The notes beneath the pieces are model-generated. The model was not told where the DNA came from. It saw only the letters and a program-made list of their open reading frames with translations, and ran no database searches. From a virus: a DNA stretch of 48,382 bases. The position numbers and the translations under genes were made by a program. The DNA lies in IMG/VR virus record IMGVR_UViG_3300030060_006037, positions 1-48,382 of that record. The stretch is one strand, 5' to 3'. Below, piece after piece: positions 6,001-48,382 of this stretch (the first letter of the stretch is position 1; every line of letters begins with the position of its first letter).

Positions 6001-6249
6001 AAGATTACAAAACTTCGTGGTGTAGAATTTGATTATAAAAAAACTAATGAACATAGTATAGGTATGATTGCAGAAGAAGTAAATGAAATATTTCCTGAAC
6101 TGGTTGCAAAAAATGAAGATGGGGATGTGACTGCAATGTCTTACACAAGAATGACTGCGGTGCTATTAGAAGCGGTAAAAGAATTGTCTGCAGAAGTTAA
6201 AGAACTTAGGAAACTTAATAATTATAGTAAATCAGGAGATAAAAAATAA
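1..6249 (+). CDS. Giant tail fibre/adhesin 1, S74-type C-terminal chaperone domain (5' end cut)
   Basis: The frame is open from base 1, so the gene begins before the window; the first ATG at 76 is internal, because the repeat SGSSTSTGSFG is already encoded at 40-72. About 2082 residues are visible. They are low in Cys and rich in Gly, Ser and Thr, with many beta-repeat units ending in GNVGIGTTSP-like turns and nine copies of the SGSATSTGSFG linker. The last ~95 residues (from SSIMYKENV, through GMIAEEVNEIFPEL, to a short coiled coil) match the peptidase S74 / intramolecular chaperone domain, which in other phages trimerises the fibre and may cut itself off. Role: an elongated trimeric host-binding fibre (inference from family). 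The stop overlaps the next start as TAATG. The true length and N-terminal virion attachment part cannot be seen. Confidence 0.88.
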   Translation, partial: GGDLGSVTLTGNVSGSSTSTGSFGRLMLGGQTIKSTTEGIAIVNDSEAYTLLSPPAAFQVVSEVDNQWFAYFRNNESTSGRNYGLYVRAGTNSTDSPFKIADKDDSTILRVSGEGTLGINTNSPQSGQKLHVVGDSFFTGNVSGSATSTGSFGKLSVGGGNITTSGNMILDADGAQIRLQDGGTEFGRISRVSSDLVLKSMSNNNDILFKGVDGGATITALQLDMSEGGNAIFNGNVQVASGGFVFSAGALTLQSGGGANLVLDAGAGADEITLSTSAFTTAVPIIGTGDLDLYAGGGTKVVSLTTSAISLLKNTSISGNLAVDTNVLYVDSSANKVGINRIDPQFDLDVIGDIRATGDVIARRYVISSSVSHITSSFSSGSTIFGDTITDTHRFTGSLSVTGSGLRLGRSILSNVYQGNLVIGSNAPAIFLDDGDVSNLRHSIIGGGNAGLEISADIHNATTGYINFGVGGSTVARMIEGGNVGIGTTSPESILHIADGSSGAIGAKLIIDNNVSDADGNGTEISFFNAAGASAAGVANSRIRSVASGNTNGYSQLQFWTYHASEAQRMVITSTGNVGIGTTDPSNYDSSADNLVIRQASGHGGITIVTDASSYGILSFGDGTGAASYRGIISYLHSADSMQFQTAGVERMKLDSSGILKNMAGVSGSATSTGSFGRLEIADNAKFGTSNGDIQIGSGAGLNITHDNSGLTVVTLNHLYATTNAGAQMKLQSGFLTFHTGTSNTERVRIDASGKVGIGMTPTHNFNLRSAGNVEFRIQSTDDDARLQISSDNDEGQDSILEFLSNTSTRGSILYDHNTTAASQKMDFKVGDNAVTAMTILGDGKVGIGNTSPATHLHINGSHVAARGLMSLESTNHAAINLRSAAGSNVAGLELFNGTNQKWGVANRGDASDKFQIRRGSDDAVAISVDQSINTEFGGNVSGSSISSASFGRIDVAGKLFVGGSQVGAGGGGSADNLGNHTATQDLDLNSNSIKNVTHITGSGNISGSTTTTASFGSLQLHGKTIHTTAASKVGLGTTNPLGNKLHVYVGESGTDTVTTNSSLVIESNTNNYIQMLNPNGNNSGIIFGEHNDIDIASILHDGGDNSLRFKVAAAEVIRINGSGNVGIGTTGPSNKLTVEDTIGIKRSGVAAITTLQMAGSGLIVNGHSGYHPLIIQANGTEVMRVTQDNKISGSATSTGSFGSLVISDAIQGGGNVKGGDFQISANDLVVDGLANATERGLVIKHSGMTSNTVSLVQDANNSRGELNTKNRSLFIQAGTDGFGSGEKFRILVNQIASLDILNDGTVLFPVANQKISGSATSTGSFGRIQAADKLVVGTGTPTADFHVFKQTVRIAADTPEIVLQDTSAFSAGTGPSIFFQGLQTGESLQTFAAIQGQSVGSGTGALAFKTRQTGTTGTKMYLDEDGKLGIGTTDPGAQLHVVGNSFFQGSKVSGSSHSTGSFGSVVAGGTGVNSFTGNVGIGVTSPDSKLEVNGTDLIGNFAGSNAGFYIRNNTPDYISFQGYGNDGFIFKDGGNERIRFESGGNVGMGITAPVGRLHLKSNGSSPSGSIAIQHSGNTVNIVEIGQSDNGNSGGAIVMDKANGVKSIHIDAHGKSRFNGGNVGFGTEVDADTTIHLQETDHVYLTIESQNTGAAREAAIKYQNYSSGTDFWWVGMNDGNDPAYSIAYGSALSNANTKLIVLDSGNVGIGTTFPGHKLHVVGDIRATGDIIANRLVVSSSVSHITASFSSGSTIFGDTSDDTHRFTGSLNVDGNIQSTSGDNLSIGTSWSPAGTYGVGRFHGAHNGGGTRVMFSNANSSVRYGIVMHGSDTGTADKLGIGLLLNENATYANASPAMTIDSSKNIGMGTQSPSNKLHVYANVSSEYTALIENDQATSGHGLQVHSDGNGTGTILFDVDAAGSSRFRVRGDGSVLVGFTTSQAEKLAVNGDFRATGNISGSATTTGSFGALSVPGQATIGSVVEASSIMYKENVKQIESPLEKITKLRGVEFDYKKTNEHSIGMIAEEVNEIFPELVAKNEDGDVTAMSYTRMTAVLLEAVKELSAEVKELRKLNNYSKSGDKK
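4037..4190 (+). repeat. 154-base segment duplicated in fibre 3 (copy 1)
   Basis: Pairs with 12291-12444 in fibre 3, same frame, no gaps, about 90% identical by eye. It encodes RIAADTPE(I/L)VLQDTSAFSA and GTGPSI(F/Y)FQGLQTGES. The similarity is much higher than between the surrounding modules, indicating recent copying between fibre genes. Confidence 0.8.
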
Positions 6250-9200
6250 TGTCTATGTTTATATCAAGTTCTAAAGCAGCCACAGGTTCATTTGGTCATG
6301 TACTACAAAATGGTAAAGGTTTATTACCACAATTTACGACAGGTAGTTCTATATTCATTGGTGAAAATGCTGGTGCTTCTGATGATGGTTCTAATAATAG
6401 AAATATCGGAATTGGTAAAAATGCTTTAGATGCCGCTACTACAGGACAATTGAACATCGCTATCGGCGATGATGCTCTAACCGATGTTACAACAGGCAAT
6501 TATAATGTAGCAATCGGATTTGAATCACAAAAAGATACTACAGGTGGACAGAATGTATCTATTGGATATAACTCACTAGAATTTAACACGTCAGGAAACA
6601 ACAATACGGCTATCGGTTACGCCGCTGCGGGTGGATTTACTTATTCTGGAGTTAGTAACATCGCTATAGGATATACAGCTCTTGGTGGAGCTAGTGTGTC
6701 AGGTGATTATAATATCGCTATTGGACATGCTGTAATGGGAAGCATCACAACCGCAGACGACAATTTAGCAATTGGGGATTTTGCTCTTACTAGTATCCAA
6801 ACTTCTACTAGAAATATTGCCATAGGTTCTGAAGCCCTAAGATATATTAAAGATGTTGGCGGAACACATGGATTTAATAATACTGCTTTAGGTTGGAATG
6901 CAGGAAAAAGATATGGAGATAATGCAGGAAACTTAGTAAGTGCAAGTTTTAGTGTATACATTGGACACACAACTTATCCACTTGAAGATAATTCTCAAAA
7001 CGAAATATTAATAGGTAGTCAAGTAAGAGGTAAAGGTTCGAATACGGCCACAATAGGTGATGGTAATATTACAGACATTTATTTGAGTCAAGACCAAGGT
7101 GCAACTGTTCATACAGGTAATGTAAGTGGTTCAGCAACCTCAACTGGTTCGTTTGGTTCTGCACATATTGCACATAAAGTCGGTATCGGCACTACGGGTC
7201 CTGGTACTGTACTTCCAAGTGGTTGGTCAGGAAATAGACTTTTAGAAATAAGAGCTTCATCAAGTGGTGGAGATGCGGGTTTATTTTTAAGAAGATTTGA
7301 AGGTGATGGTACTTATGGAATGGATTTTTGGACTGACACAAACTCTGCAGATAACTATATTGACAGCAGAGGCGGGATAAGTGCTTCTGAATTATTTATC
7401 AGAGTTGCAACTCATACAACTCCTATAAACGCAGCAAGATTTGATTATTTAGGAAATGTTGAATTTCCAAGTGCAACAACAATAAGTGGTTCAGCATCCT
7501 CAACTGGTTCGTTTGGTAATCTAAGAGTGTTGAACAATAGTAGTGCTTGGTCAAGTGCGGATGATTTCATAATTGGTAACACATCCAAAGCCGTTACCGG
7601 TATGACTTTACAAAGCACGACATCAGGTGAGACCAATATAGCATTTGCTGATGGTATAGAGGGTAATGCAGGTAGATTTGCTGGATACATAAGATATGAC
7701 CACAATGCAACAAAGATGATTTTTTCTACGGAAGGTAGTCAAAGAGTTTTTATAGATGGCTCAGGCAATGTCGGCATCGGAGATTCAACCCCAAGCCATA
7801 AGTTAGAAATAAATGATGCAAATTCTAATTCAACTTGGGAAAGTGTTAAGATAACTAATTCTAATTCTGTTGGTGCTGGATTAACATTAGCTGGTGGTGT
7901 TAAGAATTGGTCAATTATATCAAATGGTTCTGGTGGTGGTGCTGGTGGTGGTAATTTAGGATTTCACAACACAACAGACGGTGGATATAAATTTATAATA
8001 GATAGTGATGCGGCTACTGAATTATTAACTTTAGATGGTAATATAATAAGTGGTTCAGCAACCTCAACTGGTTCATTTGGTGATGGTAGATTTATAGGAA
8101 AGGTCGCCATCTTTGGGTCTGGAAGCAAAACTCCTGATACGCCATTACATATTAGAGGAGATTTCGATGGCTCAGGCGGATTACCTAATACAAATCCAGA
8201 TAAAGGATTAAATATATCGAAGTTTACAGGCCTTCAAAGTGATTACGGAAAAAGTGATAAATTTGGAATAACATTTACGGCTGCGTCTAATGGAACTACC
8301 GATTATGCGTTAGCCGGTATTTATGGACAAGTCACCAATGTATCTAGTTATGTTGGTGGTAGTATAATATTTGCAACCAGATTAGAAACTGAGAGTGCTC
8401 TTACCGCAAAAATGGCGATATCGAGTTCAGGAGATGTAGGCATCGGGACCACAAGTCCTATTAGAAAACTACAAGTAAATGCTAGTTCCTATACAGAAGC
8501 TGGTGGAGCTGATGCAAATATACATTTAAGTGTTGCCAACAGTACCTGGTCAGGTATTGGACTTTTCGGTGGTAGTTCTCAAGGTGGTTTTATAGATTTT
8601 GGTGATACGGATGCTACTCACAGAGGAAGAATTTTATACAGTCATGCAAGTGATTATATGGCATTTAATACTTCTGCAACAGAGAAGGTGCGAATTACTA
8701 GTGGAGGCAATGTCGGCATCGGAGAAACAACACCTACTGAATTATTACATTTAAAGAAAACAGGTAATGATTTTGCAACAATAATCGTAGAGAGTACTGC
8801 AAATGATACTGGTGCTGGTTCTAGCATACAAATCACAAGTAACGATGGTGCGGTATTTTTACAAAATAACTCTACTGCAAGAACTGTAACGAGATATGGA
8901 ATTGCAGTAGGTGGTTTTTTTGAAATACTTGCTCAAAACAGTACAAATGGAATGATGATTGGTAATGGAACTACAAATAAACCAATTATTTTCGGTTTGA
9001 ATAATAAAGAACAGTTAATAATATCTAATAATTCAATAAGTGGCTCATCAACCTCAACTGGTTCATTTGGTGAATTACATATTGCAGATAAAGTAGGCAT
9101 CGGGACCACAAATCCAGCACATTCACTTCATGTTGTGGATTCGAATAACACCGCGGATGGTTCAATCCGTTTAGCTAGTCATGCTTCTTTTTATACAACA

Positions 9201-11666
9201 ATAAGACAGAGAGCCTCATCTACCGGAAAATTTGAAATAGACCATAATGGTGGTAGTAGTACTGCAAAAGGTATGGTATTCAATATAAATGGTACAACTT
9301 CAATGGGTATATTACATGATAGGGATGTATATGTAAACACTAAACTCGGCATCGGTAATTCAGATCCATCAGAAGTATTGGATGTGACTGGTAATATTCA
9401 AGCAAGTGGAAATATAAGTGGTTCAGCAACCTCAACTGGTTCGTTTGGTTCAGTTTTAGCTGCTGGTACTGGAAGAAATAATTTTATAGGTCGAGTAGGT
9501 ATTGGTACTACAGACATAGGTCAAGAGCTACTTGTGCGAGGTGCAAACAATAGTGCAGGTGACACTTTTACTGCAGTCGGTGCTGGAAATGTACCAAACA
9601 TAACAATTCAAAATGCTGGAACTTCCGATGATACAAATTCTGCATTGTTTTTCAAAGATAATGATTCCCATGTTGCTGGGGTGATTTGTAGATACTTAGA
9701 CCATTCCCCAAATTCAGCTGAATTAAGGTTTGCGGTTACAAATAACGGAACATCAAGGGAAAGGGTGGTGATTTCCTCATCGGGTAGTTTGGGTGTTGGG
9801 ATGCCTACATTTCCTGCTACTCATGGTATTGGAAGTATTTATTTTTCAGGAACACAATTAAGTGGTTCATCATCTTCAACCGGTTCGTTTGGTAATGTTC
9901 ACGTTGGAAAGGGTGGTTCTTCTGCACAATTTGCAAATAGTAAATTTTCTGTAGTGGATAACAATAGTACGGAATACGCTCCGATGGGTGGTTCTTCGAA
10001 TACTGCAAACGCTATGGTTCAGTTTACTAATCAAAATACTTCTGCTACTGCTCCACATTCCCTAATACATTTCAGATTAGATAAGAGTGGTGGTGATGGT
10101 TACATGGGATTTATGACATCCACCTCAACAGGTAATATAGAACACTTTGTTGTTGGAAATCAGGTGGATGGAGAAATCATTAGAGGGGCAAGTGGAGGCA
10201 ACGTTGGTATTGGAGATTCGAATCCATCGGGTAAACTTGTTGTTTCTGGTTCAGGTACTATAAATCTACATATAGATAATAGTGGAACAGGTGATACTGG
10301 TTTATTAGGAAAACGTAATGCAACCTCTATATTTGGAATGTTCGATGATGCTAGTGATAGTAAACTAAGAATAGTAAATTATCAAGCAGAACCGATTGAG
10401 TTTAGTGTGGATAGAGGCGGTAGTGAAACCATTGTGATGACAATGCTGAATTCAGGCAATGTCGGCATCGGGACCACGAGTCCTGATACAAATTTACATA
10501 TAGCATCATCTACATCAGATGAACCAGTAGTAACAATAGAAAACACAAATAGTGATGCTACAGGTGGAACATTAAAATTTGAAAAATCTACAACTGATGA
10601 AGCAAACGATGATGTCATAGGTACAATAAACTTTACAGGCAGAAACTCTGCTAACAATGCTAATCAGATTGCAAACATAATAACCAAAGTAGTAGATACA
10701 ACAAATGGTTCTGTTGATGGTTCTATGTTGTTTCAAGTGATAGGAAATGGTAGCTTTACAAATAATTTGTATTTAGAATCAGGTAAGGTCGGCATAGGAA
10801 CTACAAGTCCAAGTGTAGCTTTAGAAGTTCGTGATGCAACTGCAAATAATGGTCATATCGGTGGAAAAATTAATGTAGCTGGTGATTGGAATGAGTCAAA
10901 TATAGCTTACGGAGGAAATAGGTCACCAGGTGTAACTATTCAATCATTAGATTCTACTGCCGGAACATTTGGAACATTAAGTTTTATGAATGCAAATGGA
11001 TATACTGGTGCTACTATTATTGCCAAGCATGTACTACATGGTGCAGGTACTGGTAATATGGATACACAATTACACTTTGGTACAAGAGGTATTGATAATG
11101 TAAATAGTGGTGCTCATAATGTTTCTGCTATGATGATTGATGAAGATGGCAATGTCGGCATCGGTGATAGTAATCCCGCTCAAAATTTAGTAGTAAGTGG
11201 TAGTAGTAAAGGATTGCTATCAGTTGGATTAGTTGGTGGTGGTTCAAGAGTTACTATTGGTGATACCACTACGGATAGTGCACTATATATGAGAAGAAGT
11301 AGTAACGGTGCAGCAAATGTTCAAGTTTTACAATTAGGTAGTTCTCTCTATGTGGGTGCTACGAGTAACGTTATAAATACTGTAATTCAATCAAACACTT
11401 CAGTATTAACAGTCGGTTCAAGTAAAGTAACTTCGAATGTTGCTGTCGAACCTACAGCAGATGCTTCATACAACTTAGGTGCTGCAGATAAAAGATGGGC
11501 AAATATATTTTCTGCTGATTTACAACTATCTAATGAAGGAACTGAAGGAAACGAAGTCGATGGAACTACAGGTTCTTGGACAATACAGGAAGGTGAGGAT
11601 GACTTATATTTATTGAATAGGAAGAATGGTAAAAAGTACAAGTTTAAACTTGAGGAGATAACCTAA
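6249..11666 (+). CDS. Giant tail fibre/adhesin 2 with YadA-like head repeats
   Basis: 1805 residues; the ATG overlaps the stop of the previous gene by one base. Residues ~35-200 hold about seven repeats of roughly 24 residues of the form NxAIGxxAL...TTG, the left-handed beta-roll repeat of YadA/trimeric autotransporter heads. The rest uses the same modules as the neighbouring fibres: six SGSATSTGSFG linkers plus a partial one at the N-terminus, and many GNVGIG turns. The C-terminus differs from gene 1: NLGAADKRWANIF followed by WTIQEGEDDLYLLNRKNGKK, a tip found at the end of many marine phage fibres. Probably a trimeric surface-binding fibre co-translated with its neighbours. Target unknown. 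Confidence 0.85.
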   Translation: MSMFISSSKAATGSFGHVLQNGKGLLPQFTTGSSIFIGENAGASDDGSNNRNIGIGKNALDAATTGQLNIAIGDDALTDVTTGNYNVAIGFESQKDTTGGQNVSIGYNSLEFNTSGNNNTAIGYAAAGGFTYSGVSNIAIGYTALGGASVSGDYNIAIGHAVMGSITTADDNLAIGDFALTSIQTSTRNIAIGSEALRYIKDVGGTHGFNNTALGWNAGKRYGDNAGNLVSASFSVYIGHTTYPLEDNSQNEILIGSQVRGKGSNTATIGDGNITDIYLSQDQGATVHTGNVSGSATSTGSFGSAHIAHKVGIGTTGPGTVLPSGWSGNRLLEIRASSSGGDAGLFLRRFEGDGTYGMDFWTDTNSADNYIDSRGGISASELFIRVATHTTPINAARFDYLGNVEFPSATTISGSASSTGSFGNLRVLNNSSAWSSADDFIIGNTSKAVTGMTLQSTTSGETNIAFADGIEGNAGRFAGYIRYDHNATKMIFSTEGSQRVFIDGSGNVGIGDSTPSHKLEINDANSNSTWESVKITNSNSVGAGLTLAGGVKNWSIISNGSGGGAGGGNLGFHNTTDGGYKFIIDSDAATELLTLDGNIISGSATSTGSFGDGRFIGKVAIFGSGSKTPDTPLHIRGDFDGSGGLPNTNPDKGLNISKFTGLQSDYGKSDKFGITFTAASNGTTDYALAGIYGQVTNVSSYVGGSIIFATRLETESALTAKMAISSSGDVGIGTTSPIRKLQVNASSYTEAGGADANIHLSVANSTWSGIGLFGGSSQGGFIDFGDTDATHRGRILYSHASDYMAFNTSATEKVRITSGGNVGIGETTPTELLHLKKTGNDFATIIVESTANDTGAGSSIQITSNDGAVFLQNNSTARTVTRYGIAVGGFFEILAQNSTNGMMIGNGTTNKPIIFGLNNKEQLIISNNSISGSSTSTGSFGELHIADKVGIGTTNPAHSLHVVDSNNTADGSIRLASHASFYTTIRQRASSTGKFEIDHNGGSSTAKGMVFNINGTTSMGILHDRDVYVNTKLGIGNSDPSEVLDVTGNIQASGNISGSATSTGSFGSVLAAGTGRNNFIGRVGIGTTDIGQELLVRGANNSAGDTFTAVGAGNVPNITIQNAGTSDDTNSALFFKDNDSHVAGVICRYLDHSPNSAELRFAVTNNGTSRERVVISSSGSLGVGMPTFPATHGIGSIYFSGTQLSGSSSSTGSFGNVHVGKGGSSAQFANSKFSVVDNNSTEYAPMGGSSNTANAMVQFTNQNTSATAPHSLIHFRLDKSGGDGYMGFMTSTSTGNIEHFVVGNQVDGEIIRGASGGNVGIGDSNPSGKLVVSGSGTINLHIDNSGTGDTGLLGKRNATSIFGMFDDASDSKLRIVNYQAEPIEFSVDRGGSETIVMTMLNSGNVGIGTTSPDTNLHIASSTSDEPVVTIENTNSDATGGTLKFEKSTTDEANDDVIGTINFTGRNSANNANQIANIITKVVDTTNGSVDGSMLFQVIGNGSFTNNLYLESGKVGIGTTSPSVALEVRDATANNGHIGGKINVAGDWNESNIAYGGNRSPGVTIQSLDSTAGTFGTLSFMNANGYTGATIIAKHVLHGAGTGNMDTQLHFGTRGIDNVNSGAHNVSAMMIDEDGNVGIGDSNPAQNLVVSGSSKGLLSVGLVGGGSRVTIGDTTTDSALYMRRSSNGAANVQVLQLGSSLYVGATSNVINTVIQSNTSVLTVGSSKVTSNVAVEPTADASYNLGAADKRWANIFSADLQLSNEGTEGNEVDGTTGSWTIQEGEDDLYLLNRKNGKKYKFKLEEIT

Positions 11667-14600
11667 TGGCAATAACCACCAAAAAATTAATAGCTGAAGA
11701 ATACGTTGTATCCTCTTCGGTAACCTTAATGACACAATCACTTTCGAGTGGTTCGACTGTATTTGGTGACTCAATGGATGATACTCATAAAATGACCGGT
11801 TCTCTATTTGTTAGTGGTGGAATATCAACAGATGGTAGTGCTGGTGGAACTGCAACATTCAAAGGAAGTTCTACTCAATCTACATTGAATCTCCAAACTT
11901 CTGTAAGTAATTTTGTCGTAGGGATGTCAAACTCATCTGGTAGACTTGATTTAAGACCTGGTGGAACAACAGCACTTACGGTAATTAATTCAGGTAATAT
12001 CGGCATCGGCAGCACAAGTCCTGGACAAAAACTTACCATAAAAGGCGGTAACATAGAGATTACTGGTAGCGGTGGTACAGGTATTTTCTTCACAGGAACC
12101 GCAGATGGTTCAAATAAAAATGCTTTATACTTTAGAACACAAGGAGGAACTGAAAAATTTAGAATAATACACGATGCCTCTGCAGACGGAACTAATGATT
12201 TACAAATCAAAGCAAATGCAAGTAGTGTTATGGTAATGAATATGTTACAAGATGGCAAGGTCGGCATTGGAGGATCACCAACAGCAGGACTTCATGTTTT
12301 TCACCAAACATTAAGAATTGCTGCTGATACTCCAGAATTAGTTTTACAGGACACAAGTGCTTTTTCTGCTGGAACTGGTCCATCAATCTATTTTCAAGGA
12401 TTACAAACAGGAGAATCAATACAAACATTTGCTGAAATTCAAGGAGTATCAACAAGTACTGCCAATCAGGGTGAATTAATATTTAAAACAAGAAAGGATG
12501 GTTCACAAAATGAAGCAATGAGAATAGATCAAGATAGAAATGTCGGCATCGGGACCACAAATCCACAGAAAAAATTAGAAGTAATTGTGCCAGAGAATAA
12601 TTTTGTATCATTTGCCGTTCAACATAGTCCTGGTAGTCATGCTGGTATTCATTTTGGATATAGAGAAAATAATAACCTTTATAGACACTCACAATTAAGA
12701 TTTCAAAGAACCGATAGATTTGCAAATAATGCTATGGGTAGAATAATGTTGATTAATAAAACTGCAACAGATTCAAGTAATCCAGGTGAAAGTGATGCAC
12801 ATCTAACCATAGATGAATTAGGATTTGTAGGTATTGGTAGAAATGTTGGTGGTCATTATAGTACTGGTCCTCGAATTCAAGCACTGCTTCATGTAAGTGC
12901 AAGTAGTGTTGTTGGTTCTGCAACTGCGTCACTTCATGTCGAAGGAAGTGGTTCACTCGTAGTTTCTGTTGATGGAACACAAGGAAGACTATTCTCAATA
13001 TCAGACGAACTATCAGGTAGTTTATTTAGTGCAAACACAATATCTGGTTTGCCTGTAATAGAAGCTTTCTCAGATAATAAGGTAACATTAGGACCATATA
13101 GTAATCCTGTAACAGTTACATCTACAGGTAATGTTGGTATTGGAACTGCGGTGCCTACAGGCCAAAATTCAAATGGACCGGTTTTACACTTGTTCGGAAA
13201 AAATGCCAGCGGTACTTTGAACGAACCACAAATAGTATTTCAACAGACTGGTGAACCAGCGATGTCAATTGGTGTTAATGCAAATTTAGATAGTGGTGCT
13301 GCTATGTTGTTTCAAACGAATAACACTAGCATCAGAATGGTTATTAGAGAGGATGGTACGGTAGGAATTGGTACCGCATTTCCCACAGGTGATTTTGTAG
13401 TTCAAACCACAGCCGCAAGTGTAGATATACCTAATATGGCAAATGGACAGTTAGCTGTTGCAGCTGGTAGTTCTACAATATATGCTGGTATTTTTGGAAA
13501 ACAAACCAGTAATCAGATTGGATTACAACTTATGGCTGCGACACCAGATACAAATTCCTCTACATACGGTGATATGAATTTCAACATAAGAGAGAATGAT
13601 GATTCTGAATTTGCAACAACTTCGGGTAAACCTGGTTTTGTATTTTCAAGATATGGAACTCATTTGATGGCAATTAATAGAACCGGTAATGTTGGCATAG
13701 GAACTACAAATGCTGATGAAGCATTATTACATATGTATAAGGCTGGGGAATCAGCTAATGTTAATTACATACAAATGGAAATGGGTGGTGGTTGGAGTTC
13801 TCATCCAAATTATCTTAAAAACATAACTTGGTCGGATGGTAATGCTGGTAATAAAATAGCTGCGATTGGTGCCGAGTTCGATGGTTCAAGGGGTAACCTT
13901 AGATTTCACAGTTTCTATAATGGTGGATATAATTCTAATGTATTATTTACAATGCGAGGAAATGGTAATTTTGGTATAGGCTCTCATGTTCCATCAGCAA
14001 AATTAGAAATCATAGGTGGTGGTATAACCATATCTGGTTCTAACGATACTTCTCCTATTCAAGCATTATTGATAAAAACAAGTGCCGCTTCATCCCAAGG
14101 ATATTTAGCCGTTGAGGGTAATACTGCAGGAACATTTATAACAGGAACTTTAGCTAGAGCCACAGTTCTAGCATCATCTGCTAATAATACTGCATTGCAG
14201 TTAGGTTCTTCAGGTACGGTTAAAATGACCATTGATGGTGATGGTCATGTATCCATAGGAACAACAGCTACAAATTACAGTTCTAACACAAAAACCTTGG
14301 CAATATTCGGTGGTCAGTCAGATAATTCAAGAGCCGCTATTGATATACTCGGTTCAGAGGTAAATGCCGATGATGCTTTAGGTTCTGTAAATTTTTGGAA
14401 TGTAGGAGCTGGTAATAACAAAATCGGTGCTTTAGTAGTTTCAAGAGATGGTGCTGATAATAGTGGAAAAATGTTATTTCAAACTGCAAATGCTGGCTCT
14501 AATTCAACTAAAGTTGCTATAAAAGCAGATGGCAATGTCGGCATCGGCGAAACAAGTCCTGATGAACTACTACACATAAAATCATCTACAGCATCAGAGC

Positions 14601-17600
14601 CAGTTATAAAGTTAGAAAATGCTGGTGATGTTACAAATGGTGCCCAACTTCATTTTGTAATGTCTACAACTGGTGAAGGTGATAACGATATACCAGGCAC
14701 CATAAGATTCAAAGGGATGAATAGTGCTAACACAGAAACAGAGTTTTCTACGATATACACAAGAAACATAGATGTAACGGATGGTACTGAAGATAGTGAG
14801 ATGCATTTTAGAACGATGAATGCTGGTACTTTAGATTCCCATATGATGATTAAATCAGGTAATGTCGGCATCGGCACCACAACTCCTCCAGTTAAACTTC
14901 AAATAAATGATTCTGGAACTGCACCAACAGCTGCTGGTTCAGGTGATTATGGAACAGGCTTTAATGTAGCCAGAAGTGATGGTTTGATGGGTATGACGAT
15001 GGGATATCAAGCTTCCCCTCAAGCATTTTACATACAAGGTAGAAATTTTACTAATACAGATAAGACAAACTTACTTATCAATCCTTTAGGGGCAAATGTC
15101 GGCATCGGAAATGATGATCCTCAACACGCACTTGATGTTTATGGAACGGATGATGTCACTATGAGAATTCACAGACCTAGTTCAGGACTTGGTTCTAATG
15201 ATAGTTGTGGTATTGGTTTTTCCCATAGAAGTGATACAAATATCTCAACCTCAGATGTAAGAGCTGGTATTTTTAGTATATACAATGGTGAAATGTTTCT
15301 TGCAACAGAATCAGGTGGAAATCTAAACAGTAATCCTATCGACCACGCAAGACTATATATAGATGGTGCAGGTCTTGTCGGCATCGGGACCACAAATCCT
15401 CAATTCAAACTTCATATATCTGGTTCTACTGATTTATTATGGTTACAAGGAAGTGGTGCACCTCAACTTAGGATGACAGATAATAGTGCGACTTCGGATG
15501 GTGATACATTTGCCTTAATAGACTTCGCAGGAATGGATCATGCAGGAGGTTCTCTCGTACTTAATCGTATATCAAATGTGATTGTTGATAATACTCAAGG
15601 TACAACAGATAGTAGGTTAACATTACAAAATAGAGTCAACGGAACACTAACAGAGGTTTTATCAGTAGCCTCAGGCAAGGTCGGCATCGGAACAACTGGT
15701 CCTACACAAATGCTTCATGTACATGCTGGGGATATATTAATGACAGGAGGTCCATCAGATTTAAACCCAATAGCTGCTGTAAGATGGACATATAGTACTG
15801 AATCTGGTTTCGGTACATCTGGAAAAATAGATGTTATAAGAAACGACGCCGATCAAGGTAAGGGTGGAGATATGAGGTTCTTTACCCAAGCAGACAATAC
15901 TTCTGATGGTGGAACTGAGAGATTTAGAATAGATAATACTGGTAATTTAATCATAAGAGCCAATGATAAACATTTATTCGGACTGACAACTGGTAATGCC
16001 ACAATACAGTTAATCGGTGTTAGAGGTGATAATTATGTTGAGATAGGTCATAGTGGTTATGGTGTAGTAACTGGTACTGGTAATTGGGCACTAGATGGCG
16101 CTGACAATATGACTGTTAATGCAAACGCATATTTTGGTGAATATCTATATCATAGTGGAGATACCGACACATATATACAATTTTTACCTGATAGATTATT
16201 ATTATTTGCAGGTGGTGATGAAGTCCTTGATTACGAAGAGGGATCCAATAGTATATTACAGATAGCAAATGGTGGAGAAGCTGATATCAATATCGGTGGT
16301 GGTAATATGTTCATCGGTGGTTCACAAGGTAGTTACGATGCTAGAGTCGGCATCGGAACTACCAATCCTGGCCCTATGTTACAGGTTCAAGGAGCTGCCA
16401 ACGCAAGTGGAACAAACTTAAAACATCATATAACTGTAACCGATGATGTAACTTCATGGAATGGTTATCCTGCGTCCGGTATAGCCTTTGCTGGTAATTA
16501 CAACAGCACACCAAGTCAAATAGAGTTTGGTGGAATTATGGGCAAAAAGCAGAACACTACCCATGGCGATTTACGAGGTCAATTGCAATTTACGACCAAT
16601 ACAAATTCCAATGTACAAACCATAGCAATGACAATTGATTCGTCCCAAAATGTCGGCATCGGAGAATCAAGTCCAGGTGCAAAACTTCATGTATCAACCG
16701 CAGATTCTGGTATAACTCCAAATGCGGTTGCGGATGATTTATTTGTAGAAAACAATACACATGGTGGTATAACGATTGGAACACCAAATAGTGTAAAAGG
16801 TTATTTATTTTTTGCAGATCCTGAAGATAATGCGGGTGCTGGTATAACTTACAATCATGCTACAAATAATATGGCAATAGCCGCTGGTGGTACTACTAGA
16901 ATGGTGATTTCTGGTTCAGGTAGAGTCGGAATTGGTACAGATGCTCCTACCGAAGCCCTTACAATTCGTGGAAACAGTACTGGTACTAATGGATTTGCAT
17001 ATCCTGCAATTGCTGGTTATACTCTTAATACAAAACTATGGTGTTTGGAACAACATTTTGGATATGAAGGTAGAATGGCATTATATGATACGGGTAATTT
17101 AAAAGTATTATTTAGAGCATCAGGTTCTTCATATATTAATACTGGTAGTACATTGAAATTTGGTATAGGAAATTCCAATCCTACATATAAATTAGATGTT
17201 ACTGGAGATTTACTCGTAACTAAAACCTCTGGTAATTTAGCTAGATTTACAGGTGCTGGGGCTTCTTCATTTTACATATCTGCAACAGCTCAAATAACAC
17301 ATACCTCAACAACTGGAAATACTGCTTTTGCAATCAACCAAGCAGGTTCTGGTGATGCATTTTCCGTAGATAGTAGTGCATTGATTGTTAAAGCGGATGG
17401 CAAGGTCGGCATCGGAGAAACAAGTCCCTCAGAAAAACTAGAGGTCGCTGGTGGTATAGCATTTTCAGGTACAGCCACAATGACAGAGGGAACTGATTTA
17501 GGTAAGGCCACTATAGATACCGATGGTACTGATAGGATGCGTTTTCACATGAATGGTGCTAATAACGGAGTTTTCGGTGGATATGAATTCAGACAATCAA

Positions 17601-18742
17601 AAGGTGACCATACCGATGAAAGATTAGTGATGCTTATCGATGAGACAGGTAAGGTTGGTATTGGAATATCAGCCGCAGATGGTAGATTGCATGTATCCGA
17701 TGGATTAGCTGGAGTTGTAACTGCTAACGCAGATGCAGATGAGTTAGTAATAGAGAATGACGGTAATGCTGGTATTTCTATATTAACTCCAGCCAGTTCT
17801 AATGGTGCTATATACTTTGGTGATCCACAAGATAATAATATAGGTATGATTGATTATGACCACGCACTTAATAAACTTTCTTTTACAGCTGCAGCTACTA
17901 CAACACCTGTATTTTCATTAACAGCTTACGTCGCAGAGTTTGGTTCTAGTATAACAACGATAAGTGGTTCACAACATTCAACTGCTTCATTTGGAATGTT
18001 GAGAGTGATGGATATTAAAAGTCAAACTTATGGTAACACATCACCATCAGAAATGATTTCCACACTAAATGTGTATGCAGATAAAGGTGCGGGGCCTGAC
18101 CAGGTGGTAGGACATTTTTTAAACGATGAGGCTGCTGTAAATGATGGTGATTCTATTTTAAGATTAGAATATTCTGATGACTCAAGTATTTCATCGAATC
18201 AAGATTTTATTACTTTCTACAACCAAGCACAAGAGGTAGGTAGTATTAATGACCAAGTTGCTTATTCAACTTTTACCGGTATGCACGTATCACAAAGACC
18301 ATCCGGATCCGATTTTTCCAATTGGAAGCCTGGTATGGTTGTGAAATCAACCGGTAAATTAATTCATACAAGTTCGATATCAAATGCGTGGCCAGAAGTT
18401 GAACTTACATCCACACAGAAAGATAAAGCTTGTGTTGGTGTATTCTCATATACAAGTTCTATGAAAAAAGTTAAAGGTCTCGATTCTACCTTACCACGTA
18501 TTTACTATAATGCAATAGGAGAAGGTTTAGTAAGAGTAACTGATACAGGTGGAAATATTGAGGTAGGTGATTACATATGTTCATCTACGAGAGCTGGACA
18601 TGGTGAAAAACAGGATGACGATTTAATGCATAATTATACAGTTGCAAAAGCAACTCAACCTTACAACTTTGCATCAGCTAGTAATGATAGTGAATTGGGA
18701 TATAAATCTGTACTGATTGGATGTACATATCATTGTGGTTAG
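11666..18742 (+). CDS. Giant tail fibre/adhesin 3 with auto-processing-like C-terminal domain
   Basis: 2358 residues, the longest gene here; ATG overlaps the preceding TAA by one base. The N-terminus (VVSSSV...SGSTVFGD...DTHKMTGSL) matches a module used twice inside fibre 1 (near 1105-1200 and 5210-5310). The body is a chain of GNVGIGTTSP beta units, but with only one SGSxxSTxSFG linker, close to the end (17963-17995). The last ~230 residues are non-repetitive: VGVFSYTSS..., then NAIGEGLVRVTDTGG, GDYICSSTRAGHG, KQDDDLMHNYTVAKATQ. This resembles the C-terminal intramolecular chaperone / peptidase G2-type tips of phage and large-virus fibres; the family assignment is by eye. Likely a third host-binding fibre. 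Confidence 0.85.
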   Translation: MAITTKKLIAEEYVVSSSVTLMTQSLSSGSTVFGDSMDDTHKMTGSLFVSGGISTDGSAGGTATFKGSSTQSTLNLQTSVSNFVVGMSNSSGRLDLRPGGTTALTVINSGNIGIGSTSPGQKLTIKGGNIEITGSGGTGIFFTGTADGSNKNALYFRTQGGTEKFRIIHDASADGTNDLQIKANASSVMVMNMLQDGKVGIGGSPTAGLHVFHQTLRIAADTPELVLQDTSAFSAGTGPSIYFQGLQTGESIQTFAEIQGVSTSTANQGELIFKTRKDGSQNEAMRIDQDRNVGIGTTNPQKKLEVIVPENNFVSFAVQHSPGSHAGIHFGYRENNNLYRHSQLRFQRTDRFANNAMGRIMLINKTATDSSNPGESDAHLTIDELGFVGIGRNVGGHYSTGPRIQALLHVSASSVVGSATASLHVEGSGSLVVSVDGTQGRLFSISDELSGSLFSANTISGLPVIEAFSDNKVTLGPYSNPVTVTSTGNVGIGTAVPTGQNSNGPVLHLFGKNASGTLNEPQIVFQQTGEPAMSIGVNANLDSGAAMLFQTNNTSIRMVIREDGTVGIGTAFPTGDFVVQTTAASVDIPNMANGQLAVAAGSSTIYAGIFGKQTSNQIGLQLMAATPDTNSSTYGDMNFNIRENDDSEFATTSGKPGFVFSRYGTHLMAINRTGNVGIGTTNADEALLHMYKAGESANVNYIQMEMGGGWSSHPNYLKNITWSDGNAGNKIAAIGAEFDGSRGNLRFHSFYNGGYNSNVLFTMRGNGNFGIGSHVPSAKLEIIGGGITISGSNDTSPIQALLIKTSAASSQGYLAVEGNTAGTFITGTLARATVLASSANNTALQLGSSGTVKMTIDGDGHVSIGTTATNYSSNTKTLAIFGGQSDNSRAAIDILGSEVNADDALGSVNFWNVGAGNNKIGALVVSRDGADNSGKMLFQTANAGSNSTKVAIKADGNVGIGETSPDELLHIKSSTASEPVIKLENAGDVTNGAQLHFVMSTTGEGDNDIPGTIRFKGMNSANTETEFSTIYTRNIDVTDGTEDSEMHFRTMNAGTLDSHMMIKSGNVGIGTTTPPVKLQINDSGTAPTAAGSGDYGTGFNVARSDGLMGMTMGYQASPQAFYIQGRNFTNTDKTNLLINPLGANVGIGNDDPQHALDVYGTDDVTMRIHRPSSGLGSNDSCGIGFSHRSDTNISTSDVRAGIFSIYNGEMFLATESGGNLNSNPIDHARLYIDGAGLVGIGTTNPQFKLHISGSTDLLWLQGSGAPQLRMTDNSATSDGDTFALIDFAGMDHAGGSLVLNRISNVIVDNTQGTTDSRLTLQNRVNGTLTEVLSVASGKVGIGTTGPTQMLHVHAGDILMTGGPSDLNPIAAVRWTYSTESGFGTSGKIDVIRNDADQGKGGDMRFFTQADNTSDGGTERFRIDNTGNLIIRANDKHLFGLTTGNATIQLIGVRGDNYVEIGHSGYGVVTGTGNWALDGADNMTVNANAYFGEYLYHSGDTDTYIQFLPDRLLLFAGGDEVLDYEEGSNSILQIANGGEADINIGGGNMFIGGSQGSYDARVGIGTTNPGPMLQVQGAANASGTNLKHHITVTDDVTSWNGYPASGIAFAGNYNSTPSQIEFGGIMGKKQNTTHGDLRGQLQFTTNTNSNVQTIAMTIDSSQNVGIGESSPGAKLHVSTADSGITPNAVADDLFVENNTHGGITIGTPNSVKGYLFFADPEDNAGAGITYNHATNNMAIAAGGTTRMVISGSGRVGIGTDAPTEALTIRGNSTGTNGFAYPAIAGYTLNTKLWCLEQHFGYEGRMALYDTGNLKVLFRASGSSYINTGSTLKFGIGNSNPTYKLDVTGDLLVTKTSGNLARFTGAGASSFYISATAQITHTSTTGNTAFAINQAGSGDAFSVDSSALIVKADGKVGIGETSPSEKLEVAGGIAFSGTATMTEGTDLGKATIDTDGTDRMRFHMNGANNGVFGGYEFRQSKGDHTDERLVMLIDETGKVGIGISAADGRLHVSDGLAGVVTANADADELVIENDGNAGISILTPASSNGAIYFGDPQDNNIGMIDYDHALNKLSFTAAATTTPVFSLTAYVAEFGSSITTISGSQHSTASFGMLRVMDIKSQTYGNTSPSEMISTLNVYADKGAGPDQVVGHFLNDEAAVNDGDSILRLEYSDDSSISSNQDFITFYNQAQEVGSINDQVAYSTFTGMHVSQRPSGSDFSNWKPGMVVKSTGKLIHTSSISNAWPEVELTSTQKDKACVGVFSYTSSMKKVKGLDSTLPRIYYNAIGEGLVRVTDTGGNIEVGDYICSSTRAGHGEKQDDDLMHNYTVAKATQPYNFASASNDSELGYKSVLIGCTYHCG
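12291..12444 (+). repeat. 154-base segment duplicated in fibre 1 (copy 2)
   Basis: Second copy of the segment at 4037-4190, 8 kb away in a different gene. It follows a GTCGGCATTGG core (one-base variant, at 12260) by about 20 bases, the same module order as a typical turn-then-strand unit. Confidence 0.8.
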
Positions 18743-44923: not shown

Positions 44924-46933
44924 ATGGAAAAATTTAAGTTGTCAGACAACTTTGTTGCAAAATATAAAAGAAAGAAAGCACCTTTTGGTTTTAATGGATT
45001 AGGTGAGTTGGTTTATATGAGAACCTACTCAAGAATCAAAGAGAACGGAAAGAATGAAAGATGGTGGGAAACGGTTCAAAGGGTTGTAGAGGGAACTTAT
45101 AATATGCAAATGAATTGGATTGAATCACATCAATTAGGGTGGAATCCGTGGCAGGCACAGAGGTCAGCTCAAGATATGTATGAGCGTATTTTTAATATGA
45201 AATTCTTACCTCCTGGTCGTGGACTGTGGGCAATGGGAACGCCAATCACAGAAGAAAAAGGTTTATATGCCGCCCTAAACAATTGTGCTTTCGTATCTAC
45301 GAAAACACTAAAAGAAGATTATGCTAAACCCTTTTGTTTCCTTATGGATGCGAGTATGTTAGGTGTTGGTGTGGGATTCGACACAAAGGGTGCTGGAGAA
45401 ATAACAATCAAAGGTGTGGATGAAAATAAAACTACATCAACCTATGTAATACCAGATACCCGTGAGGGGTGGGTTGAGTCTCTAAAGTTATTATTAGAAA
45501 GTTATTTTCATGGTCTAGGTAAAGTAGAATTTGATTATTCAGAAATAAGAAAAGCTGGTGAACCAATAAGTGGTTTTGGTGGAGTTGCAAGTGGTCATGA
45601 ACCATTGAAAGAGATACATGGTGATATAACAGAGGTATTAAAAAAGAATGTGGGAGAACCAATCTCAATAACAACAATCGTAGATATAATGAATCTTATT
45701 GGTAAGTGTGTTGTAGCTGGTAATGTTAGAAGAACTGCTGAGATTGTATTCGGAGAACCTGATTCAGAAGAATATTTAGACTTAAAAAATTATAAAGTAA
45801 ACAAACACAGAGAAACATATGGATGGACAAGTAATAATAGTATATTCGCTGAATTGGGTATGGATTATACAGAAGCTGCCAAACGAATTGTGGATAATGG
45901 TGAGCCTGGATTTGCGTGGTTGGACAATATGAGAAAGTATTCCCGTATGAAAAATGGTGGGGATAATAAAGACCATAGGGTTGCAGGTGGTAATCCTTGT
46001 TTAGAACAATCTTTAGAGAGTTATGAATTGTGTTGTCTTGTAGAAACATTTCCAAACAATCACGATAGTTTTGAGGATTATGCCAGAACCTTAAAGTATG
46101 CTTACCTATATGCAAAAACAGTTACATTGGGAAGAACCCATTGGGCAGATACCAATAGAGTTATGTTAAGAAATAGAAGAATTGGTTGTTCAGTAAGTGG
46201 TGTTGCTCAGTTTATTACAAATAGAGGTTTGGGAGAATTGAAGAATTGGTTAAATGGTGGATATGATGTGATACAGGAATGGGATAAACAATATTCAGAT
46301 TGGTTTGCTGTTCCTAAGTCGATTAAGACAACATCGGTTAAACCATCAGGAACAGTTTCACTACTTGCAGGAGCGACTCCAGGATTACATTACCCTGAGA
46401 GTCGTTTTTACATTAGGAGAGTAAGGTTGTCTAAACATTCAGAATTGATTGGACCGATGGAAAAATCAGGTTATAAAATAGAACCAGCTTTTGGTTCAGA
46501 GGATACAACAATGGTTGTTGAAGTGCCGGTTGATGTGGGCGAGGGTATAAGAACTGCGGCTGAACTATCCATTTGGGAGCAATTCAGTTTAGCCGCATTC
46601 TTACAAAGACATTGGGCAGACAATCAGGTAAGTTGTACAGTCACATTCAATCCAGAAACAGAGGCAGAACAAATTGCACCAGCATTAAACTACTACCAAT
46701 ATCATCTGAAAGGTATAAGTTTATTACCGAGACATGACTATGGTGCTTATCAACAAATGCCTTATGAGGCGATTGATGAGGATACTTACAAAAAAGAGGT
46801 AAGTAAATTAGGTAAATTATCCTTTGGAGTAATCAAAAATGAGGAAGCCGAAGTAGATAAATTCTGTAACAATGATTCTTGTGAAGTCATTCCTATGACA
46901 GGTGACAATGACGATCAAGATTATGCAAACTAA
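44924..46933 (+). CDS. nrdJ: Class II (adenosylcobalamin-dependent) ribonucleotide reductase, monomeric type
   Basis: 669 residues. It makes deoxyribonucleotides using a radical from vitamin B12 coenzyme, without oxygen or a small subunit. The Cys layout fits the monomeric Lactobacillus enzyme (RTPR): C121 in LNNCAFVST, C359 and E361 in GGNPCLEQSLESYELCCLVE (thiyl radical Cys and its Glu), C370 exactly 11 residues later as in C408/C419 of RTPR, and a C-terminal pair C648/C653 (KFCNNDSCEVI) spaced like C731/C736. Also TTSVKPSGTVSLLAGATPG. No nrdB-like gene follows. GAGGAG lies before the ATG; 18 bases separate it from glutamine synthetase. It works with ThyX in supplying precursors, and depends on host or imported B12. 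Confidence 0.92.
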   Translation: MEKFKLSDNFVAKYKRKKAPFGFNGLGELVYMRTYSRIKENGKNERWWETVQRVVEGTYNMQMNWIESHQLGWNPWQAQRSAQDMYERIFNMKFLPPGRGLWAMGTPITEEKGLYAALNNCAFVSTKTLKEDYAKPFCFLMDASMLGVGVGFDTKGAGEITIKGVDENKTTSTYVIPDTREGWVESLKLLLESYFHGLGKVEFDYSEIRKAGEPISGFGGVASGHEPLKEIHGDITEVLKKNVGEPISITTIVDIMNLIGKCVVAGNVRRTAEIVFGEPDSEEYLDLKNYKVNKHRETYGWTSNNSIFAELGMDYTEAAKRIVDNGEPGFAWLDNMRKYSRMKNGGDNKDHRVAGGNPCLEQSLESYELCCLVETFPNNHDSFEDYARTLKYAYLYAKTVTLGRTHWADTNRVMLRNRRIGCSVSGVAQFITNRGLGELKNWLNGGYDVIQEWDKQYSDWFAVPKSIKTTSVKPSGTVSLLAGATPGLHYPESRFYIRRVRLSKHSELIGPMEKSGYKIEPAFGSEDTTMVVEVPVDVGEGIRTAAELSIWEQFSLAAFLQRHWADNQVSCTVTFNPETEAEQIAPALNYYQYHLKGISLLPRHDYGAYQQMPYEAIDEDTYKKEVSKLGKLSFGVIKNEEAEVDKFCNNDSCEVIPMTGDNDDQDYAN

Positions 46934-46951
46934 TCAATAGGAGAAAAGGTT

Positions 46952-47935
46952 ATGCATAAATTAGAATATCTATGGTTGGATGGTTGTAATCCAACTCAAA
47001 TCAGACATAAAACAAAAATAGTAAAGTCTTTTGGAAGAGATAGTGAAGCACCAATATGGGGCTTTGATGGAAGTTCAACTGAACAGGCAGATGGTGGTAG
47101 TTCCGATTGTGTTTTAAAACCAGTCAGAGTTTATAGCAATCCATTTGAATTAGAGGGTTCAATAGTATTATGTGAGGTCTATAATGTAAATGATACACCA
47201 CATGAAACAAATACAAGAAGAAGGTTAGATGAAATCATTTCAGATGTAGATGATATTCAAGAATGGGTAGGTTTCGAACAGGAATATACTTTATTCAAAG
47301 ATAATAGACCATTAGGTTGGCCAGAAAATGGTGAACCGGCACCACAAGGAGATTACTACTGTGGAAGAAACATTGGAGAAAATATATCGCGAGAACATAT
47401 GGATGCTTGTATTGAGGCTGGTGTAAGTATTTGTGGAACAAATGCAGAGGTGATGTTAGGACAATGGGAATATCAAATCGGTGCTGGTGGTTCAATACAC
47501 ATGAGTGATGATTTATGGGTTGCTAGATGGTTGTTAGAAAGAATTTGTGAAAAGCATGGAGTATTGGTTTCTGTACATCCAAAACCGATTGAGGGAGATT
47601 GGAATGGTGCTGGATGTCATACTAACTTCTCTACGAAGGCGATGAGAGAAGAAGGTGGATATGAAAAGATAATTGAGGCTTGTGAAAAACTATCAGAAAA
47701 TACCAAAAATCATATAGATGCCTATGGTATAGATAACGAAAAAAGACTAACAGGCCTACATGAAACTTGTAGTATTACAGAGTTTAGATATGGAGTATCA
47801 GACAGAGGTGCTTCTATCAGAATACCGTGGCAGGTTGAAAGAGATGGTAAAGGTTATTTAGAGGATAGACGTCCAGCTTCAAATTGTGATCCTTATGTAG
47901 TATCACAGAAGTTAATCCAAACAATATGTCAATAA
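46952..47935 (+). CDS. Glutamine synthetase, type II (GlnII)
   Basis: 327 residues, full length for the short GSII (eukaryotic-type) family; forms glutamine from glutamate, ammonia and ATP. Signature parts: WGFDGSSTEQADGGSSD (36-52), FEQEYTLF (108-115), GTNAEVMLGQWEYQIG (162-177), EGDWNGAGCHTNFST (214-228), LTGLHETCSI (266-275), RGASIRIP (285-292), EDRRPASNCDPY (304-315). Metal and substrate Glu/His/Arg positions look intact, so it should be active. Not a usual phage gene; probably taken from a bacterial host. AGGAGA precedes the ATG, and the gene follows RNR by 18 bases, apparently one transcript. Glutamine is the nitrogen donor for nucleotides, which fits the neighbours. Confidence 0.93.
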   Translation: MHKLEYLWLDGCNPTQIRHKTKIVKSFGRDSEAPIWGFDGSSTEQADGGSSDCVLKPVRVYSNPFELEGSIVLCEVYNVNDTPHETNTRRRLDEIISDVDDIQEWVGFEQEYTLFKDNRPLGWPENGEPAPQGDYYCGRNIGENISREHMDACIEAGVSICGTNAEVMLGQWEYQIGAGGSIHMSDDLWVARWLLERICEKHGVLVSVHPKPIEGDWNGAGCHTNFSTKAMREEGGYEKIIEACEKLSENTKNHIDAYGIDNEKRLTGLHETCSITEFRYGVSDRGASIRIPWQVERDGKGYLEDRRPASNCDPYVVSQKLIQTICQ

Positions 47936-47958
47936 ATTCACATACTTACAAAAAGCGG

Positions 47959-47992
47959 ACAGGCAGACGGCACACCTGTAGAAAAATGTGCC
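47959..47992 (+). promoter_or_regulatory. Putative H-type RNA pseudoknot between glutamine synthetase and receptor genes
   Basis: Interleaved stems: ACAGG (47959-47963) with CCTGT (47975-47979), and GGCACA (47969-47974) with TGTGCC (47987-47992). Loop 1 is CAGAC, there is no base between stems, and loop 3 is A-rich (AGAAAAA), the geometry of classic H-type pseudoknots such as some small riboswitches. TTTTC follows, so the second stem alone could instead act as a weak terminator. It ends about 18 bases before the ribosome site of the next gene, a place suited to translational control. No known riboswitch consensus was recognised. Confidence 0.5.
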
Positions 47993-48022
47993 TTTTCATT
48001 AATGAACAACGAGGAGATTACT

Positions 48023-48382
48023 ATGAGATATCGTAATCTAATCCTTTCAGCAATGATGATGGTTGGAGTTGTCTTTGGACAAGTCGTAACCGGATTTGTT
48101 GGTGAAGGTGATAAACCACTTGTAGGTGCAAATGTTGTAGTTGAAGGTACTACAAAGGGTGGTGTCACAGATAGTGAAGGTAAATTTACTATTGAGACAG
48201 GCTCTGGTACTTTTGATATAACTGCTTCCTACATTGGATACATAACCCAAACTAAATCTGTTAGTGTTGGGGATATAGTGTCCAGCGTTAGTTTCAATTT
48301 AGAAATTGATGTTGTGGCACTTTCAGCTCTTGAAGTTTTGGCTTCTCGTGCTGATGAAAAAACACCTGTTGCTTATACTACG
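48023..48382 (+). CDS. TonB-dependent outer-membrane receptor, N-terminal part (3' end cut)
   Basis: 120 residues to the window edge with no stop. A signal peptide MRYRNLILSAMMMVGVVFGQ (basic start, hydrophobic core, cleavage near GQ) is followed by a carboxypeptidase-regulatory-like beta domain: GEGDKPLVGANVVVEGTTKG, VTDSEGKFTIETGSGTFDIT, ASYIGYITQTKSVSV (~20-95). Then comes ALEVLASRADEKTPVAYTT, the TonB-box/plug entrance typical of TonB-dependent transporters of Bacteroidota/Marinimicrobia type. Such receptors import siderophores, cobalamin or glycans. GAGGAG-ATTACT-ATG closely mirrors the RNR ribosome site (GAGGAG-TTACT-ATG), arguing that it belongs to the same genome. Substrate and barrel lie outside the window; a surface protein with the same N-terminal domain but no barrel is possible. 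Confidence 0.78.
   Translation, partial: MRYRNLILSAMMMVGVVFGQVVTGFVGEGDKPLVGANVVVEGTTKGGVTDSEGKFTIETGSGTFDITASYIGYITQTKSVSVGDIVSSVSFNLEIDVVALSALEVLASRADEKTPVAYTT

Follow-up and report, generated by a model that had tools for sequence, protein, structure and literature searches.

Gene Content of the Window and the Receptor at Its Right End

The window, that is, the whole stretch of DNA analysed, covers 48,382 bases of viral DNA recorded in IMG/VR and has the gene set of a T4-like myovirus, including tail sheath, tail tube, baseplate, gp32, UvsX, exonuclease, DnaB helicase, ThyX, and nrdJ genes. Three huge consecutive frames (at least 2082, 1805, and 2358 amino acids) occupy positions 1-18742, the third of which matches tail-fibre families. 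At the right end, the gene order is nrdJ, a GlnII-type glutamine synthetase gene, and a fragment of a TonB-dependent receptor (TBDR) gene (Table 1). The glutamine synthetase scored 462 bits, slightly below the NCBIfam equivalog cut-off of 500; GlnII-type enzymes occur in at least 228 viral stretches, often between nrdJ and the gene for family-B DNA polymerase (polB), with or without the receptor.

Table 1. Features at the right end of the window, with the evidence used to place them.
Feature	Position	Strand	Basis
nrdJ, B12-dependent (class II) ribonucleotide reductase, left border of slot	44924..46933	+	profile matches; locus comparison
Glutamine synthetase, GlnII type, optional neighbour in same cargo slot	46952..47935	+	profile matches; locus comparison
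H-type RNA pseudoknot in receptor leader, 35 nt	47958..47992	+	covariation; receptor-specific in viral contigs; no Rfam match
Pseudoknot P1, 5 bp	47959-47963/47975-47979	+	
Pseudoknot L1	47964-47968	+	
Pseudoknot P2, 6 bp	47969-47974/47987-47992	+	
Pseudoknot L3, A-rich	47980-47986	+	
Ribosome-binding site GAGGAG	48011..48016	+	sequence; kept in relatives
TBDR gene, 5' part, 120 codons, cut by contig end	48023..48382	+	ORF open to end; Pfam; full-length relatives
Signal-peptide-like N-terminus MRYRNLILSAMMMVGVVFGQ	48023..48082	+	translation; like pattern in phage copies
CarboxypepD_reg-like domain, residues 28-100	48104..48322	+	Pfam match
Pre-plug linker expected to carry TonB box, ALEVLASRADEKTPVAYTT region	48329..48382	+	position before plug in complete relatives

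The initial annotation had described a truncated receptor frame with a CarboxypepD_reg-like domain, and this was borne out. The frame runs without a stop from its ATG to the contig end, and its 120 amino acids matched the Pfam families CarbopepD_reg_2 (PF13715, E = 1.8e-16) and PF13620 (E = 1.3e-10). A second in-frame ATG is located upstream at 48002, and the start conserved among relatives is that at 48023. The N-terminus combines a basic start with a hydrophobic core and resembles a signal peptide in composition, as judged by eye in the window and its relatives. The TonB box would lie at about residues 103-113, a placement made by position, as a conserved stretch precedes the plug in complete relatives. 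Neither plug nor barrel is present within the window itself, so the identity of the receptor rests on complete relatives. Over all 120 residues, the fragment shares 98% identity with L001, 95% with L002, and 88% with L004.

Complete phage copies are approximately 890-945 amino acids long (894-944 from the matched start in the first set) and end in NAEVFLGTPRYFNLGLTVNF or close variants, the last residue being F, a C-terminal aromatic. Their architecture comprises a signal peptide (by composition), a CarboxypepD_reg-like domain, a plug, and a 22-strand-type barrel. The plug family PF07715 was matched in four complete copies (E from 5.5e-14 to 7.8e-15, and 1.5e-13 for L004), and the profile search of the complete copies gave no sequence match to the barrel family PF00593. 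The barrel was modelled by AlphaFold2 for L004 (pLDDT 88.7, pTM 0.84, 108 sequences), and the top Foldseek matches of this model in the PDB were PqqU, Fiu, FhuA, FecA, and BtuB; specificity is not readable from the model. The nearest NCBIfam model was SusC/RagA (TIGR04056), at 46-64 bits over the first ~165 positions only and far under its cut-off of 368, and BtuB (PRK10641) reached 29 bits in one copy against a cut-off of 836. With the plug recognised by sequence and the barrel by model, the complete copies are recognisable as TonB-dependent receptors and would act in TonB-dependent transport.

A first scan of viral contigs recovered 83 relatives of the receptor, and a later scan with a different query found relatives in at least 319 IMG/VR stretches, the majority clearly the same gene. 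Among the 106 phage loci containing both nrdJ and polB, the gap between these genes holds the receptor in 78, together with glutamine synthetase in 20 of those 78; glutamine synthetase stands alone in 25 and neither gene is present in 3, these counts referring to loci and not to independent lineages, since some contigs are near-copies or present twice. In L309 and L310, the receptor-free gap measures 24 bp only. This interval (44924-48382 in the window, and homologous loci) acts as a cargo slot that can hold the receptor, glutamine synthetase, unassigned frames, or nothing. In a minority of phages (L042, L045, L067, and L024-L028), the receptor occupies a different position in the genome, next to an Hsp20 gene, with its pseudoknot leader retained; the gene and its leader move together. 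L067 also encodes a CobT-like protein of 706 amino acids near the receptor. The description of such receptors as rarely carried by phages holds for isolate collections, where 14 of 50,697 phage records had a match, all below 31% identity, but fails for this marine lineage, in which the gene is common.

A Pseudoknot in the Receptor Leader

A 35-nt element precedes the start codon in all phage copies examined whose sequence extends far enough upstream. Its two stems are interleaved with zero nucleotides between P2 and P1, and the first loop mostly opens with CAG. Across 53 distinct pseudoknot sequences, a set gathered partly by a sequence pattern that fixed some columns and left the letters of variable pairs untied, standard pairs occupy 96.9% of stem cells. 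Double changes were observed in 45 cells versus 9.0 ± 2.4 in shuffled alignments, none of 500 shuffles reaching the observed value; when the partner was offset by one to three columns, pairing fell to about 50% or less. The compensatory double changes affect three pairs in P1 and three in P2, as expected of an H-type pseudoknot. In addition, P1 changes from CAGG/CCTG to CTGG/CCAG (an A-U to U-A flip) in pattern-independent loci outside the model, which constitutes an independent compensatory change. Thermodynamic folding of the leader was unremarkable (z = -0.24), as expected of a method that cannot draw pseudoknots. The pseudoknot can be considered real with very little doubt. No intrinsic terminator was called in the leader on the + strand, and the inverted repeat found there corresponds to one half of the pseudoknot. 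In most loci, a conserved ATTCACATAC-like box, perhaps a promoter element or transcript start, lies about 10-14 nt upstream of the pseudoknot (~47937-47945 in the window).

The element is specific to the receptor gene in the loci scanned. The pattern scan of viral contigs matched at least 120 stretches, and among the matches listed, the receptor is the gene following the element in 109 of the 119 examined; in the other 10, the contig ends at most 138 bases further on, after a start resembling the signal peptide of the receptor. Wherever the downstream gene could be read, it was the receptor (more than 100 phage loci among the matches listed). A covariance model detected the element in phage loci with the receptor and gave nothing above noise in nine loci chosen for glutamine synthetase, whose stretch shows no receptor. 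Of 65 additional receptor loci, 62 were recovered by the model, and the remaining three carry the element by eye. In SAR406 bacteria, the pattern produced one weak match in 244 genomes (with two mismatches), and the covariance model produced noise-level matches only in 120 genomes.

Small H-type pseudoknots with an A-rich third loop are also formed by the preQ1-I, SAM-II, and NAD+-II riboswitches. Rfam searches did not link the present leader with any of these, even at E <= 10: no family reached its gathering score over the window, and the relaxed search over 47900-48100 returned implausible matches only. As no nucleotides separate P2 from P1, a ligand pocket like that of preQ1-I is not obvious. 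The pseudoknot in the gene 32 mRNA of phages T4 and T2 is likewise of the H-type, located upstream of a T4-like start codon and followed by an A/U-rich stretch (PMC3014915). That pseudoknot is autoregulatory, and a review of T4 post-transcriptional control presents it as perhaps the sole viral example with a part in translational autoregulation (PMC3014915). The present one fronts a receptor gene and differs in sequence and loops. The element was sought in the gp32 leaders of these phages and none was seen, so that its position at the receptor gene only, in the loci scanned, argues against a gp32 translational operator. Control of translation or mRNA stability is the most likely function of the pseudoknot. 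Tentatively, it could represent a new class of phage regulatory RNA, either a riboswitch or a protein-binding operator, tying the output of a nucleotide importer to the nucleotide pool or to DNA replication, although we hold this to be somewhat less probable than its opposite. Since the element is short, sharply defined, and receptor-specific, it could be tested with a reporter and without the host.

Ancestry of the Receptor and Candidate Host

In a phylogeny against candidate hosts, as the initial annotation had suggested, phage copies form one cluster supported by SH-aLRT and nested inside the core receptor of Candidatus Neomarinimicrobiota (SAR406). This cellular orthologue (for example L160, L164, and L167) is about 60-70% identical to the phage copies over its full length, but it is chromosomal, has other neighbours, and lacks the pseudoknot leader. 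In the three SAR406 genomes for which the default search threshold was used, one orthologue stood at 64-65% identity and the other TBDRs at approximately 23-38%; in a stricter survey, 108 of 199 SAR406 genomes had a strong match. With phage genes on both flanks and cellular descent, the receptor is a phage auxiliary (host-derived) gene. Its nesting in the SAR406 core receptor makes SAR406 the likely host of these phages, which is our best guess from receptor ancestry alone. When SAR406 assemblies were searched for phage contigs that might tie these phages to a host, only distant sheath and tube genes were recovered.

Strict monophyly of the phage copies was rejected (AU test, p = 4e-5), as one SAR406 copy, L158, lies inside the phage cluster. 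It is therefore likely that the gene returned from phages to cells or was captured a second time, and in the case of L158 a transfer from phage to host is possible. A sliding comparison showed no mosaic structure in L158. This receptor comes from a SAR406 metagenome-assembled genome (the same genome as L248), where, by eye, the beginning of another receptor gene stands in tandem with it and a DegT-like gene lies close by.

Substrate and Role of the Receptor

The gene neighbours of cellular relatives provide the main indication of a substrate. A gene for an ENPP-type nucleotide pyrophosphatase/phosphodiesterase (PF01663) directly follows the receptor, or a receptor pair, on the same strand in 16 of approximately 52 non-SAR406 cellular loci, which span at least five phyla (Calditrichota, Ignavibacteriota, Bacteroidota, Chlorobiota, Balneolota, and KSB1 being named). 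In 14 of these 16 loci, 73-506 bp separate this gene from the matched receptor, and a tandem second receptor intervenes in L204 and L235. Within SAR406, ENPP adjoins the receptor in genomes G048 and G101 and lies within ~4 kb of it in G001, G143, G156, and G197. Ten genomes were examined for further ENPP genes, and in each of them no other strong one was found; nine of these genomes were picked because they show the link, while in L160 the ENPP gene is 3.9 kb away. A HAD-IIIB acid phosphatase gene (PF03767) directly precedes the receptor in L200, L225, and L227, and a deoxynucleoside kinase gene (PF01712) directly follows it in L159 (SAR406) and L197. ENPP enzymes liberate nucleoside monophosphates, acid phosphatases of the HAD-IIIB class can yield nucleosides, and deoxynucleoside kinase re-phosphorylates nucleosides; the ENPP class also includes phospholipid-cleaving enzymes. 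By guilt by association, a nucleotide or nucleoside is the simplest reading of these neighbours, and we regard a nucleotide-type substrate as an evenly balanced proposition.

The leading alternative is the import of another nutrient, such as a peptide, an iron chelate, or another organic phosphate or carbon compound, with the salvage genes as incidental neighbours. Siderophore receptors and PqqU are among the best fold matches, and among NCBIfam models SusC/RagA comes closest, albeit far under its cut-off. Moreover, neighbours vary among close SAR406 relatives: many or most of the closest orthologues are flanked by housekeeping genes (such as DnaG, Lon, and peptidase U32) and not by salvage genes, the ENPP link is strongest among more distant relatives, and ENPP and the TBDR co-occur only weakly among SAR406 genomes (odds ratio 2, p = 0.02, ignoring relatedness and completeness). 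On the other hand, three distinct types of nucleotide-salvage gene recur beside the receptor in distant phyla, and neither a SusD-like partner nor iron genes appear among the most frequent neighbour families. Such an alternative nutrient thus seems a good deal less probable than a nucleotide-type substrate, while ranking ahead of the other alternatives.

Import of cobalamin for the B12-dependent nrdJ of the phage, the usual left-hand neighbour, is unlikely. The adjacency of nrdJ and the receptor is conserved, and in two Saprospiraceae loci a cobalamin riboswitch (L193, 8834-9022; L205, 8805-8988) and DUF4465 proteins, known B12 binders (PMC13398666), occur beside the receptor orthologue. However, these riboswitches precede the DUF4465-type genes directly after the receptor; lying downstream, they do not control the receptor. 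The SAR406 orthologues yielded no cobalamin riboswitch, the BtuB score was negligible against its cut-off, and contigs with the receptor at the other site, which are fragments only, show no nrdJ.

That the receptor is a working importer is itself highly probable, judging from how it has evolved. Over 777 pairs of phage copies, dN/dS has a median of 0.185 and a maximum of 0.27, indicating purifying selection. Phage copies retain 4780 of 4785 residues (99.9%) at 165 positions that are nearly invariant in cellular relatives of many phyla, plug residues among those kept, and they differ from the SAR406 clade by only two fixed changes. This retention fits a functioning transporter with the ancestral ligand and makes a working importer likelier than a decoy; nutrient import, one of the roles first suggested for the gene, is accordingly the likelier one. 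The other suggestion was that the receptor alters the infected surface, replacing the entry receptor of the phage or titrating rival phages (superinfection exclusion). TBDRs such as FhuA and BtuB are classic phage receptors, and the gene lies within the replication module. Nevertheless, no positive evidence for this role was obtained, and a receptor so similar to that of the host would give phages one more point of entry instead of taking one away, which, together with the conservation described above, makes a change of surface improbable. Finally, an assembly chimera or host contamination, to which the position of the receptor as the last feature on the contig might point, is scarcely credible, given that many independent contigs hold complete copies internally with phage genes on both sides and that the leader element is confined to phages. 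Complete copies between nrdJ and polB indicate that the gene at the contig end is most probably not a chimeric join; for the receptor family, such a join is ruled out. The initial annotation had asked whether phage genes or bacterial chromosome follow the receptor: at the level of the family, polB follows, and the proposal that the phage encodes the receptor is practically certain.

Receptors of this type are already known from other phages. The marine megaphages Mar_Mega_1 and LR745206 also carry a SusC-like TBDR, proposed to raise uptake during infection (PMC9723777), but they are megaphages outside the present T4-like lineage, and the passage on that receptor describes no leader RNA; the LR745206 receptor shares 27.6% identity with the present one over only 22% of the length. 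Viral contigs from the gut, from viruses of Bacteroides and Alistipes, are likewise enriched for TBDR domains, although their TonB plug and barrel genes are discussed as entry receptors or epitopes rather than in terms of a conserved slot and an RNA element (PMC8857322). Within the literature searched, no report of the receptor cassette and its leader RNA was found, and the conserved cassette with its own RNA element is what appears to be new.

In the reading preferred here, a receptor gene was captured from a Marinimicrobia (SAR406) host and retained as a cassette by a marine T4-like phage lineage. Infected cells would translate the receptor from an mRNA with the pseudoknot folded in its leader; the protein would then be exported by its signal peptide, inserted into the outer membrane, and powered by the host TonB system. 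More of a scarce substrate would thereby be taken up, the likeliest candidates being extracellular nucleotides, nucleosides, or nucleotide-derived phosphorus compounds, which could feed phage DNA synthesis, the gene being located between those for ribonucleotide reductase and DNA polymerase. The computations support the phage location of the gene, its ancestry, the selection acting on it, and the covarying pseudoknot, and from these, transport activity, substrate, and control by the RNA are inferred. Taken as a whole, from the SAR406-derived importer gene and its pseudoknot leader to nucleotide-type uptake, this account stands about as good a chance of being right as wrong.

A common marine virus lineage, apparently infecting uncultured SAR406 bacteria, thus carries a complete outer-membrane importer gene under its own conserved RNA element, which may also be used as a DNA tag to find these phages in metagenomes. 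If the importer is active, viruses would remodel what infected ocean cells take up and not only their metabolism; if it is an RNA-regulated nucleotide importer, the virus would install a regulated nutrient gate in the outer membrane of its host.
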